Both the position numbers and the translations under genes were made by a program. A stretch of 64,000 bases of DNA from Pontibacter rufus (lineage in GTDB: Bacteria > Bacteroidota > Bacteroidia > Cytophagales > Hymenobacteraceae), in NCBI RefSeq assembly GCF_015694705.1, contig NZ_JADQDR010000006.1, forward strand, positions 124,001 to 188,000. Reading direction: 5' to 3'. The notes beneath the pieces are model-generated. The model was not told the DNA's origin. It searched no databases and was given only the letters and a program-made list of their open reading frames with translations. This document shows positions 3,625 to 7,959 of this stretch, piece by piece; the stretch's first letter is position 1, and the number at the start of each line of letters is the position of its first letter.

Positions 3625-3725
3625 TTGTTTAATTGTTCTGCGTCCCGATTTAAGAAACAATTTTGCTCCCCAACTTTGCAATTCCTACATTTAGAAGTTT
3701 ATACTTCAACATCCCGCAAACTTTA

Positions 3726-5558
3726 ATGAACCATAAAATATTCAGCCTGTGTGCGCTCATGTTTGGCCTGGCAACACAACCTTTGCTGGCGCAGCAGCAA
3801 GTGGATTACAAGCTCTCTTTTCCCAACCTGGTGCATCATGAGGCAGAGATTCAGGCAACTTTTTCTGATGTAAAAACCGATACATTAAAGGTGCTGATGG
3901 CCCGCAGTTCGCCGGGTCGCTATGCGCTACATGAGTTCGCCAAAAACGTGTATAGCGTGAAAGCCACCGATGCACAGGGCCGCGAATTGCCAATCTCCCG
4001 TCCAGGCATCAATGAGTGGGACATCAGTGGCCACCATGGTACCATAACGATCAGCTATACTTTGTTTGGCGATCATGCTGATGGCACCTACGCCGGTATC
4101 GACGAAACACATGCGCACCTGAACATGCCCGCCACGCTGATGTATGCCAAAGGCTTTGAGGAATCTCCGGCTTACGTAACTTTTAACATCCCGCAGGGCA
4201 AAAACTGGAAAGTGGCTACTCAACTGAAGCCGGAGCAAGGTAACTCATACTTTGCGCCCAACTTCCAGTACCTGATGGACAGCCCCACCGAAATCAGCGA
4301 CTTTGACCTGGCAGAATGGACGGTACAGGAGAACGGCGAAACGAAAACCATACAGGTGGCGATGCACCATCTGGGCTCCAAAGAGCTGTTTAACCAGTAT
4401 GTGGCGCAGGTAAAGAAAATTGTAGCCGAAGAACGCGCGGTGTTCGGCGAGCTGCCGGATTATGATTTCGGGCGTTATACTTTTATTGCCTGCTACATGC
4501 CGCAGGCGATAAGCGATGGCATGGAGCACCGCAACTCGACCATGATTCCGAGCCCGCGTCCGCTGGATACCTCTATGGACAGGCTGCTGAACACGGTGGC
4601 GCATGAGTATTTCCATTCGTGGAACGTGGAGCGCATCCGCCCGAAAAGCCTGGAGCCTTTTAATTTTCAAGAGGCAAATATATCGGAATCACTGTGGCTG
4701 GCAGAGGGCTTTACCAATTATTTCGGCGATTTGATGATGGCGCGCACCGGTATTTTTAACACAAAGGAATATGCCGAAGGTGTGGCCGGCGACCTGAATT
4801 ACGTGTTGCTGTCGCCGGGCCGCCAATACCATACCTTGGTAGAGATGAGCCGGCAGGCGCCCTACGTGGACGCCGCCCGCTCTGTAGATCCCGTAAACCG
4901 CCAGAATACGTTTATTTCCTACTACATCTACGGCAGCATAACGGGCCTCGCCCTGGACATGACCCTGCGTCAGCAATACGACAAAACGCTGGATGACTAC
5001 ATGCAGGCCCTGTGGCGCAAGTATGGCAAACCCGAAAAGCCGTATACTTTAAGTGATTTGGAAGAAACGCTGGCCGAAGTAAGTGGCGACAAAGCCTTCG
5101 CTGCCAGCTTCTTTCAGCATACCATCAACGGAACAGACCTGCCGGATTATGGGCCGCTACTGGCCAGAGCCGGTTTAGAACTCCGCAAAGCACAGCCGGG
5201 AACACCCTCTCTGGGCACATCCGCTTTAAACATTACCAGGGATGGCACTGAGATTACGGCCGGCACTTTGGTAACGTCTGCCGCCTACAAAGCCGGCCTC
5301 GACCGCACCGACATTATACTTACGCTGGATGGCCGCAAAATCCGCTCCGAAAAAGCCCTGCAGAAAGCACTTCGCCAGCACAAGCCCGGCGATACGGTTC
5401 CTGTTACATTCAGGCGCCTCGGCCAGCCCCGCACAACCACTATTACGCTGGATGAAGTGCCTTTGCTGGAAGTAGTTCCTTATGAGGCCATTGGTAAGCA
5501 GCTAACGCCCGAAATGCAGCAATACCGCCAGGCATGGCTGGGCTCCAAAGCAAAGTAG
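3726..5558 (+). CDS. Secreted M61-family metallopeptidase with PDZ domain
   Basis: From the ATG at 3726 the protein has 610 residues. The frame is open to 3663, but only the later start gives a proper signal peptide (MNHKIFSLCALMFGLAT, cleavage near LLAQ). An N-terminal beta domain precedes the gluzincin motif HEYFH (293-297) in VAHEYFHSWNVERIRP, and the third zinc ligand is the Glu in AEGFTNYF (about 327). A PDZ domain occupies roughly residues 505-590. M61 enzymes are glycyl aminopeptidase-like zinc proteases; the product should be periplasmic. Its stop codon is followed after five bases by an RHS fragment, showing a recombination breakpoint. Confidence 0.92.
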   Translation: MNHKIFSLCALMFGLATQPLLAQQQVDYKLSFPNLVHHEAEIQATFSDVKTDTLKVLMARSSPGRYALHEFAKNVYSVKATDAQGRELPISRPGINEWDISGHHGTITISYTLFGDHADGTYAGIDETHAHLNMPATLMYAKGFEESPAYVTFNIPQGKNWKVATQLKPEQGNSYFAPNFQYLMDSPTEISDFDLAEWTVQENGETKTIQVAMHHLGSKELFNQYVAQVKKIVAEERAVFGELPDYDFGRYTFIACYMPQAISDGMEHRNSTMIPSPRPLDTSMDRLLNTVAHEYFHSWNVERIRPKSLEPFNFQEANISESLWLAEGFTNYFGDLMMARTGIFNTKEYAEGVAGDLNYVLLSPGRQYHTLVEMSRQAPYVDAARSVDPVNRQNTFISYYIYGSITGLALDMTLRQQYDKTLDDYMQALWRKYGKPEKPYTLSDLEETLAEVSGDKAFAASFFQHTINGTDLPDYGPLLARAGLELRKAQPGTPSLGTSALNITRDGTEITAGTLVTSAAYKAGLDRTDIILTLDGRKIRSEKALQKALRQHKPGDTVPVTFRRLGQPRTTTITLDEVPLLEVVPYEAIGKQLTPEMQQYRQAWLGSKAK

Positions 5559-5632
5559 ATTAGTTATTCCAGTACAACGGAAAAGAGAAGCAATCAGAGC
5601 TGGGGCTCAACTGGAGTGACTACGGGGCCCGG

Positions 5633-6355
5633 ATGTACGATGCCCAGCTGGGAAGGTGGCACGTGGCGGACCCGCTGGCGGATATGCATCATGACCTTAC
5701 GCCCTACAACTACACGCTGAATAATCCGCTCCGCTTCACGGATCCATTTGGGATGGATACTGTCAGTGTTAACAACATGAACTCTCAGAATTGGAAGTCT
5801 TTCGACACTGATAGTGATGTTATTGGGCTAAATGAAGTAGAGATAACCCCTGGTGGAGGGGACACGCAGCAGGCCAGCCAGCCACAACAAGGAGGGAAAG
5901 AAAGTCCAAGTACAGAAGATATTATTGTTAATGGCATCGGTGGAGGTATAGCCACGAGTTTAGGAACAGTAGAATATATAGATAAGCTGATACCTAAAGA
6001 AACTCTTAGGAAATTAACATATGAAATAGCGAAAGAATCTAAAGGTGGATTAATTGGACTTAAATCAGGGCAGCTTTATCAAGGATTTAAGAGAATAGCT
6101 AGAGCTTCAACTAAATTGGGAACGCGGTTGGGAGCCGCAGGACAAATTGCTTCAACTCTTCAATATGTGGGAGACTTTGATAAAGCAACAACTGGAAAAC
6201 ACACGAATTTTGCTGTTTCAACAGTAATATATGGCTTATCAATTAATCCTGTAACTGCACCTGTATTTGCTCCAATTGGCTTTGTTTATGGTGCTGCTCA
6301 GTTTGGTTCTTTCGTAATGACTGGTAAATCATTGGAGGAAAATATTATTGATTAA
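5633..6355 (+). CDS. Truncated RHS core tip with hydrophobic C-terminal (toxin-like) domain
   Basis: Residues 1-40 carry the end of an RHS-associated core ([25 protein letters not shown]). The same frame reads further upstream, giving RHS-like [14 protein letters not shown] until an in-frame TAG at 5561, so the cage and repeats are missing and this ATG may not be a natural start. After a Gln/Gly-rich linker (LNEVEITP region, 50-85) comes a Gly/Ala-rich hydrophobic domain (about 85-240) without recognisable nuclease residues; such tails in Bacteroidota RHS proteins are often presumed membrane-acting. Base composition becomes much more AT-rich after about 5750, suggesting transfer of the C-terminal module. 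Without its shell the protein may be a silent tip reserve or remnant. Confidence 0.7.
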
Positions 6356-6363
6356 CTTAGTTT

Positions 6364-6780
6364 ATGCTTGACTTATTATTTTATATTAATTGGCGTGTAT
6401 TCAATATGGGTAGAAAGAAAGGCCTTTATATTGAGAATATAGCCGGATTTATAGCAATGAAAGCTCTTACAATTTTTGCTGTGTTATTGATCTTAATACA
6501 ACACCTGTTTGAGTTCAAGATCAGAGAGTTCTACCTTAATAGTTCGCTCAATAGACTATTTACAGGTATTATAGCCATTGTCATTTATTACTTGTTCTAT
6601 AGTACGATTAAATCATACCTTATTAAAGGTAATCACTACCAAGAGCTGTTAAAGAAGCTAGACAAGAAATATAAAGATAAAGGAAACTCTTTCTTCCTCA
6701 CGATTTATCTTTTAGTTACCTTTTTTGTTTTTTTTAGTTTATGGTTTACAAGCTTTAGTATTGCCAAAGGGTGGTGGTAA
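6364..6780 (+). CDS. Small membrane protein, candidate immunity to the RHS tip
   Basis: This 138-residue protein starts eight bases after the RHS fragment and shares its AT-rich composition. It has about three to four hydrophobic segments (LTIFAVLLILIQHLF, LFTGIIAIVIYYLFY, FFLTIYLLVTFFVFF, and a C-terminal one) separated by lysine-rich loops. A membrane protein immediately behind a hydrophobic toxin-like domain fits immunity to a pore-forming effector, where cognate immunity proteins are membrane-embedded. This is inferred from position and topology only; I recognise no family. Confidence 0.6.
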   Translation: MLDLLFYINWRVFNMGRKKGLYIENIAGFIAMKALTIFAVLLILIQHLFEFKIREFYLNSSLNRLFTGIIAIVIYYLFYSTIKSYLIKGNHYQELLKKLDKKYKDKGNSFFLTIYLLVTFFVFFSLWFTSFSIAKGWW

Positions 6781-6884
6781 ATGCCTTGCAGCCCGTGCTT
6801 TTGTTAGATAGCTGACCAGAAGTGGTGCATGTTGCGGCATGTTATAGACGGACCGCAGGAGTTGCAAGTAGAGTTTTTAGATAA

Positions 6885-6917
6885 AAGAAGCCCGGTCAAT
6901 GAGCCGGGCTTCTTTGT
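6885..6917. terminator. Bidirectional hairpin terminator
   Basis: AAAGAAGCCCGG and CCGGGCTTCTTT pair across a short loop with flanking A/T runs. It can end both the plus-strand RHS/immunity transcript and the decayed minus-strand gene next to it. Confidence 0.75.
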
Positions 6918-6918
6918 T

Positions 6919-7045
6919 TTACAGGGCGGCGACGTTCTTCTGGAAGAAGTCCCTGAACTTCTTTTTGGTCAGGGAAGTAACGAGCACGTGCAGGATGTGG
7001 CTTTTGTTATCTTGTCAAGTTCGCTCAGGCGCTGGAGTATGGCCG
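6919..7045 (-). pseudogene. C-terminal remnant of a frameshifted gene
   Basis: On the minus strand the last reading frame ends SLTKKKFRDFFQKNVAAL and a TAA at 6919-6921, directly before the terminator. Upstream, protein-like sequence continues in a different frame (ILQRLSELDKITK, about 7003-7042), with stop codons in the first frame. This pattern fits a decayed gene with one frameshift of which only about 40 codons remain. The family is not recognised. Confidence 0.4.
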
Positions 7046-7225
7046 GGTACTGAGCAGATTAGCTATTGCAGTCCCGGCATCACGTGAAAATACAGGCAGA
7101 CGGGACTGGCAGAACTAAAGGTCATAGTTGCTAAGTATCATCCGATGGGCTAAAATGTTATTGTAAGGTTACTACAAGAAACTATAAAATACGTTATCTT
7201 TATGGTAGAAACAGCAATAAGAGTT

Positions 7226-7468
7226 ATGGATATACAAGCCGAAAAGCTAGCCTTAATCCAATGGCTGGCCGGTATTAACGACAGCCAGGTAATTAGCCGG
7301 TTCCGGGCCTTGAAGCGCACCAGCGAGGAAACAGTACAGGAAACACTAAGCCCGGCGGAAACAGAAGCTATCAGCCAGGGCCTACAGTCTATAAAAGCCG
7401 GTAAGGTTAAATCTCAGGAGGAAGTTATCCGGTTAACGAGAGAAAAGTACCCGCAGCTTTTCCGGTAA
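7226..7468 (+). CDS. Antitoxin of a RelE/ParE-type toxin-antitoxin pair
   Basis: Small acidic helical protein of 80 residues from the ATG at 7226 (MDIQAEKLALIQWLAG), a beginning common among Bacteroidota antitoxins of this type. The frame also allows an ATG at 7202, but TATCTTTA, a near-match to the -7 box, overlaps that codon, favouring the later start. The C-terminal half (SPAETEAISQGLQSIKAG) resembles the toxin-neutralising tail of addiction-module components. The toxin gene starts two bases after its stop, so the pair is translationally linked. Confidence 0.75.
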   Translation: MDIQAEKLALIQWLAGINDSQVISRFRALKRTSEETVQETLSPAETEAISQGLQSIKAGKVKSQEEVIRLTREKYPQLFR

Positions 7469-7470
7469 GC

Positions 7471-7761
7471 ATGAAGCAAATTATATGGTCAGACGATGCC
7501 GTTACTGATTATTACCAAACCATTGATTACCTGCTCTTGGAATGGCCGGAGCAGGTAGCTATTACTTTTATAGAAGAAGTGGAAGCTGTGCTGGATGTTC
7601 TAAAACTACAGCCGGAATTATATCCTTTAAGTTCTTACCCAAACGTCAGAAGGGCAGTTATCAGAAAACAGGTAACGCTGTATTATACCCTTAAGAAAGA
7701 AGAAATAATATTAGTGCGCTTCTGGAATACCTACCAAAACCCTGATAACTTAAAAATATAA
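7471..7761 (+). CDS. RelE/ParE-family toxin
   Basis: This 96-residue protein has the compact RelE/ParE layout: IIWSDDAVTDYYQTIDYL at the N-terminus, a basic strand RRAVIRKQVTLYYTL around 59-73, and the terminal strand EIILVRFWNTYQNP. Family members are either ribosome-dependent mRNA endonucleases (RelE) or gyrase inhibitors (ParE); the sequence does not tell which. It forms an operon with the antitoxin upstream and sits in an accessory pocket behind the RHS fragment. Confidence 0.85.
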   Translation: MKQIIWSDDAVTDYYQTIDYLLLEWPEQVAITFIEEVEAVLDVLKLQPELYPLSSYPNVRRAVIRKQVTLYYTLKKEEIILVRFWNTYQNPDNLKI

Positions 7762-7959
7762 GCCAGGTCAAAAGTTCATGAAATAAAAATCTAACGGTAA
7801 GCCAGCAGCAGGTAAAGCGGTGTTCGGGCGCTGCCCATGTTATTCTGTCCGGCTGATTGATTACAACAATGCTATACTTCCGGCGTTACGGCTATACTTG
7901 CTTTTAAACAACAATAGCCGTAACTTGGTATAAGGATTTATACTTCAGACCTTTCATAC

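Follow-up and report, generated by a model that had tools for sequence, protein, structure and literature searches.

The genes and features of the locus

The window analysed here is a stretch of 64,000 nucleotides from a contig of Pontibacter rufus. Within it, a host gene for an M61 family peptidase (PF17899, E 9.8e-48; PF05299, E 1.1e-34; syntenic in congeners) is followed by a fragment of an RHS core, a variable tip and a small gene for a polytopic membrane protein. The features of the locus are listed below.

3723-5558, + strand: M61 family peptidase with a PDZ domain, the host gene to the left of the insertion and outside the RHS element (Pfam, synteny)
5559-7890, no strand: inserted stretch between the M61 gene and an outer-membrane gene, approximate (empty site in congeners)
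5561-5563, + strand: in-frame TAG immediately 5′ of the RHS core (sequence)
5564-5758, + strand: C-terminal part of an RHS core, from the (L)FQYNGKE start to the DPxG motif at its end (TIGR03696)
5759-5914, + strand: linker between core and toxin domain, the first part of which resembles the tip of congener G047
5915-6355, + strand: putative membrane-depolarising toxin domain, hydrophobic, glycine-rich and predicted to be all-helical (distant relatives, weak model)
6364-6780, + strand: candidate immunity protein, 138 aa, polytopic membrane protein (hydrophobicity; gene order in L070, L073 and L129)
6785-6878, + strand: 3′ stem-loop tail (CTTGCAGCCC ... GTTGCAAG), sharing 74% identity with the tail that follows the solo G035 tip
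6879-6921, + strand: intrinsic-terminator-like hairpin (AGAAGCCCGG ... CCGGGCTTCT and a T run; strong hairpin in the fold)
7202-7761, + strand: RelB/ParD-like antitoxin (weak) and ParE toxin, inside the insertion (PF05016, NF050811)

The M61 gene ends at the TAG at 5556-5558, and the RHS frame (5564-6355, + strand), which is intact along its whole length, opens five bases 3′ of that stop, directly behind the in-frame TAG. The first-pass annotation had described this arrangement together with a lack of upstream repeats, and both the coordinates and the TIGR03696 match agree with it. TIGR03696 aligns with residues 2-64 of the tip at 56.3 bits (E 3.5e-15; cut-off 32.5 bits) over model positions 17-76 of 76; the match enters the model only at position 17, and the core is thus reduced to its C-terminal part. 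No YD repeats or N-terminal delivery part lie upstream of the core, where the frame stops at the TAG at 5561 and the M61 gene lies. The tip had also been described as fused behind the M61 gene, a wording that has to be dropped: since the M61 gene is read in frame 0 and the RHS sequence in frame 2, each with its own stop, the two are adjacent and not fused.

The core closes with a PxxxxDPxG motif followed by the variable tip, as orphan rhs-CT/rhsI modules do, and, again as in orphan modules, no in-frame ATG marks the 5′ end of the tip. The first such codon (5633) is inside the core, and a second (5753) is found just past DPFG.

An insertion into a conserved gene order

The order PAP2, thpR, cinA, methyltransferase and M61 is kept in 19 congeners (tblastn). 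In 18 of these genomes the outer-membrane gene, which here starts from 7960, comes directly after the M61 gene with a gap of ~100-250 bases; in the 19th (G007), no such gene was found within the 2.1 kb remaining on the contig. In the window the outer-membrane gene stands 2.4 kb from the M61 gene, and the adjacency of the two genes in the 18 congeners therefore indicates that ~2.3 kb were inserted here. The left end of the insertion is the M61 stop, and the right end is uncertain (7845-7897), with the promoter region common to congeners resuming at 7895-7898. Between these ends lie the tip, the immunity candidate, the stem-loop and terminator, and the parDE pair. No RHS sequence occurs at the M61 locus in any of the 19 congeners examined, and a search of 49 congeners with the DNA of positions 6900-7900 gave no match. 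More than one event may have contributed to the insertion.

A 7-bp repeat, GTTATTC, flanks the insertion at 5563 and 7839, an arrangement with a chance of ~0.08 among shuffles. Together with a G^TT at both ends, this repeat raised the question of an integron gene cassette, which was judged by inspection against an attC site with R'' (RYYYAAC) and R' (GTTRRRY). The integron cassette was rejected in view of that chance level and as no AAC-type R'' could be seen by eye within the 3′ tail or ahead of it.

The terminator-like hairpin has copies of 81-84% similarity elsewhere; an Rfam match here, to a leucine leader and below the gathering threshold, reflects no more than this hairpin. That the 3′ tail is an element of tips only was rejected in part, as its middle resembles a dispersed intergenic Pontibacter repeat. 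This repeat, of ~45 bases (CAGAAGTGGTGCAGGTTGCGGCATGTTATAYACAGGCCGCA), is present in several Pontibacter genomes (near position 1500 in L143, L144, L146 and L148) and has a copy at 6817-6861 of the window. Within parDE, PF05016 matches with E 2.4e-08 and NF050811 with E 0.009, under its cut-off. The idea of a minus-strand transposase remnant at ~6920-7010 (DNKSHILHVLVTSLTKKKFRDFFQKNVAAL*) was discarded, the reading having no Pfam family and no DNA match in congeners, and this stretch stays unassigned.

The putative toxin domain and the candidate immunity protein

GC content falls stepwise, being 0.55 in the core, 0.36 in the toxin domain and 0.31 in the 138-aa ORF, and the 400-bp interval at 6301 has the second lowest GC content in the whole 64 kb. 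With these values, and with three clear hydrophobic stretches in the 138-aa protein (Kyte-Doolittle), the early description of a hydrophobic, AT-rich C-terminal domain followed by a polytopic membrane protein of matching composition holds good. AlphaFold2 models from shallow alignments are all-helical at low confidence (pLDDT 44 for the toxin domain and 59 for the membrane protein).

Neither the toxin domain nor the membrane protein belongs to a family above cut-off in Pfam, NCBIfam, PHROGs or PADLOC. A scan of 84,980 species genomes, confirmed by tblastn, returned no close relative, and plasmid and phage collections gave no match. Distant relatives of the toxin domain, with 16-28% identity in a four- or five-row alignment, are carried by two detached tips (L067 in G035 and L073 in G015) and by two full RHS genes, one of 2023 aa (L070 in G021) and one with a frame of 2142 codons (L129 in G581, a genome of another family than the Pontibacter genomes). 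The gene directly 3′ of the related tips in G015, G021 and G581 encodes a hydrophobic membrane protein of 116-136 aa; two of these three tips (G021 and G581) sit on full-length RHS genes and that of G015 is detached. On inspection of the sequence, the counterpart of the membrane-protein gene in G035 is apparently broken by a frameshift.

The gene at 6364-6780 agrees with the downstream genes of these relatives in gene order and in membrane character. That full-length RHS genes, too, show this gene order is the main evidence for the 138-aa protein as an immunity protein. The first-pass annotation had named the occurrence of the membrane protein apart from RHS tips as a finding that would speak against this pairing, and no reliable homologue of the protein, with or without a tip, was present in 390 genomes of the order; matches with E values from 6e-4 to 9e-3 were not accepted, being mostly long unrelated or stop-containing frames. 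By analogy with published toxins, the pair is a candidate membrane-depolarising toxin with a putative membrane immunity protein.

Detached RHS tips and their junctions across Pontibacter

A search of the genus with TIGR03696 located 46 cores in 18 of 50 Pontibacter genomes. Twenty-two of the cores are on full RHS genes, with frames of 1417-3184 codons, and 24 are detached tips of 263-343 codons, many of them close to a full gene or grouped in arrays. A full RHS gene is present in 16 of the 18 RHS-positive genomes; among the 50, the window genome and G035 are the only two with a detached tip and no full gene, and the assembly of the window genome contains no RHS core other than that of the window tip. 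The frequency of detached cores in the genus and the three related tips that are followed by membrane proteins give good support to the proposal of a displaced effector tip with its candidate immunity gene.

G029 has an array of 11 detached tips, borne on both strands beside a single full RHS gene (L064, 8300-19001; L065, 1900-8500); these tips are varied and most stand behind one and the same leader. The solo tip of G035 (L067, 7178 and 8654) is located just behind a sulfatase gene, between the two copies of an imperfect 18-base direct repeat (CCTGAAATAGATTGACAC / CCTGATATAGCTTGACAC); a resolvase-like gene and transposase-like genes come after it, and this setting suggests that the tip is carried on mobile DNA.

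Detached tips begin at two constant points of the core. Nineteen tips, from G029, G035, G021, G015, G009, G041 and G038 (loci L064, L065, L067, L071, L073, L074, L076 and L077), start at a first junction (AGCACTACGAYCC, protein HYDPWGLN), a few of them with base changes at the junction; full RHS genes read GAGAACCACTACGA (VQENHYDPWG) at this point. The leader in front of most of these tips contains a TATCTTTA-like box as well as an imperfect palindrome, TGCACC-N5-GGTGCA, the latter absent from the G035 tip and from one G038 tip. Pairing within the palindrome amounts to 85.6%, compared with 82.2% in shuffles (28 of 500 shuffles as high), and four pairs are changed on both sides (19 of 500 as high). 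Pair counts are above those of slid controls but only moderately above those of shuffles, so that the support from pairing is suggestive.

At a second, rarer junction, four tips (one in G047, two in G021 and one in G039) start ~63 bases later, at TTCCAGTACAACGG, behind a conserved leader that differs from the first and occurs nowhere else in the genus. These second leaders are found in L066 (7700-8395), L068 (upstream of 6540 and 15584, minus strand) and L075 (13300-14012), and in three of the four FQYNGKE tips the leader runs upstream into a stretch with the minus-strand reading of an XRE-type helix-turn-helix gene. The window tip starts at the second junction (FQYNGKE) to within a few bases and is without the second leader. 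Its nearest relative at the DNA level is the detached tip of G047, with 77% identity over 5564-5838, that is, the core and the start of the linker, and with the same start codon. The tips with this junction may descend from a common ancestor, the window tip having lost the leader, or the breakpoint may have been used again. The two junctions are each common to several or many unrelated tips across species, which could, though with rather low probability, reflect a dedicated or hotspot-driven movement of toxin and immunity genes.

Origin and present role of the tip

Our data are best explained by a model where the locus is a stranded orphan Rhs-CT/immunity module, probably acquired horizontally and of a putative membrane-depolarising type. 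The tip, the immunity gene, the 3′ stem-loop and the terminator would have been inserted into the short gap between the M61 and outer-membrane genes, and the parDE pair would have arrived with the tip module or next to it. Because the tip has no 5′ start codon and is preceded by an in-frame stop, its export is not to be expected, and at most weak translation might begin at one of the internal ATG codons (5633 or 5753). No obvious terminator separates the M61 gene from the tip, and so a transcript reading through from M61 and ending at the terminator at 6879-6921 may express the immunity protein. If it acts like the ionophore-type toxins of CDI and Rhs systems, a delivered toxin domain would enter the inner membrane of the target cell and collapse the potential there, an action that the membrane protein would prevent. 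The present role of the module is most likely protection against RHS-armed neighbours, or none at all if it is a recent relic.

It is conceivable, if rather unlikely, that RHS tips travel through Pontibacter as discrete cassettes whose 5′ end is constant, and that the window tip is such a unit, which reached an RHS-free genome and lost its leader on insertion. Several other accounts of the locus compete with the model of a stranded module. One, which is unlikely, is that the tip is the remnant of a full RHS locus 3′ of M61, in which a deletion removed the delivery part and joined the 3′ end of the M61 gene to the core. The two constant junctions of the other detached tips could then be read as breaks recurring at fixed points, and most RHS-positive congeners do have a full gene. 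However, the M61 locus is free of RHS sequence in the congeners examined, the window genome has no second RHS core, and the deletion would have had to end both a few bases from the M61 stop and at the very junction used in G047, G021 and G039.

We see a small chance of a chromosomal role akin to that of toxin-antitoxin systems, with an internally started tip neutralised by the membrane protein inside the cell. The orphan rhs of Salmonella is a published precedent (PMC7043789), the tip has two in-frame ATG codons, and a parDE pair is part of the same insertion; against this, no promoter above background was found 5′ of the tip, which also lacks the leader that precedes other tips. The first-pass annotation had likened the locus to RHS/CDI tip reservoirs. 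That the tip is in working use as such a reservoir, to be joined to a full RHS gene through recombination within the core in the way proposed for RHS/CDI loci, seems very improbable. Tips and full genes do have TTCCAGTACAACGG and the neighbouring core in common, an identity that may suffice for recombination, and reservoir-like arrays are present in G029 and other congeners. But the window genome, with its single RHS core, holds no recipient gene, and a recipient could come only with newly acquired DNA; for this genome, acquired immunity or a relic is likelier than a reservoir. An assembly chimera is barely credible: the locus rests on one assembly only, yet its junctions are ~130 kb inside a 346-kb contig with the congener gene order intact on both sides, and the check for a full RHS gene elsewhere in the assembly, which the first-pass annotation had proposed, revealed no other source of RHS sequence.

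A stranded module with empty sites in close relatives is a clean case of a toxin tip and immunity gene kept without a delivery gene, and bears on why bacteria keep orphan tips: as there is no recipient here, the explanations left are acquired immunity, action within the cell or a transient relic. The constant junctions across the genus make the mode of tip movement testable, and represent a more interesting lead than the tip itself.

Comparison with known systems

Standalone polymorphic-toxin cassettes (Zhang et al. 2012, PMC3482391) resemble the window pair in that toxin and immunity gene travel as one unit; unlike them, the window pair falls into no family of the libraries searched. As regards mode of action, the alpha-helical ionophore toxins of CDI systems are divergent and are accompanied by polymorphic membrane immunity proteins (PMC11630599), and Tse5 is an Rhs pore-former with the membrane immunity protein Tsi5 (PMC9637101). 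The window pair is like both in its hydrophobic C-terminal domain (here predicted to be helical), its small polytopic membrane protein as immunity candidate and the great divergence between pairs. The likeness is one of analogy, and the window protein has at least three hydrophobic stretches compared with two in Tsi5.

The orphan rhs of Salmonella Typhimurium acts as a type II toxin-antitoxin pair that is expressed from internal promoters (PMC7043789). It shares with the window locus a detached tip with its immunity gene and possible internal expression, but it adjoins a full rhs gene and has mapped promoters, neither of which was found for the window tip. The closest counterparts are the orphan cdiA-CT/cdiI and rhs-CT/rhsI modules, which are usually without translation starts and of which the orphan immunity genes are expressed (Poole et al. 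2011, PMC3150448). Like these, the window tip consists of a core fragment with the demarcating motif, has no delivery part and no 5′ start, and is directly followed by its candidate immunity gene. Those modules are found downstream of the main gene, whereas the window tip stands solo behind an unrelated host gene, in a genome that lacks the full rhs gene which is usual, though not required, for orphan modules. The finding is mostly ordinary, as orphan Rhs-CT/immunity modules are a known kind; what is unusual is that this one stands alone in its genome, at a site that is cleanly empty in its relatives.
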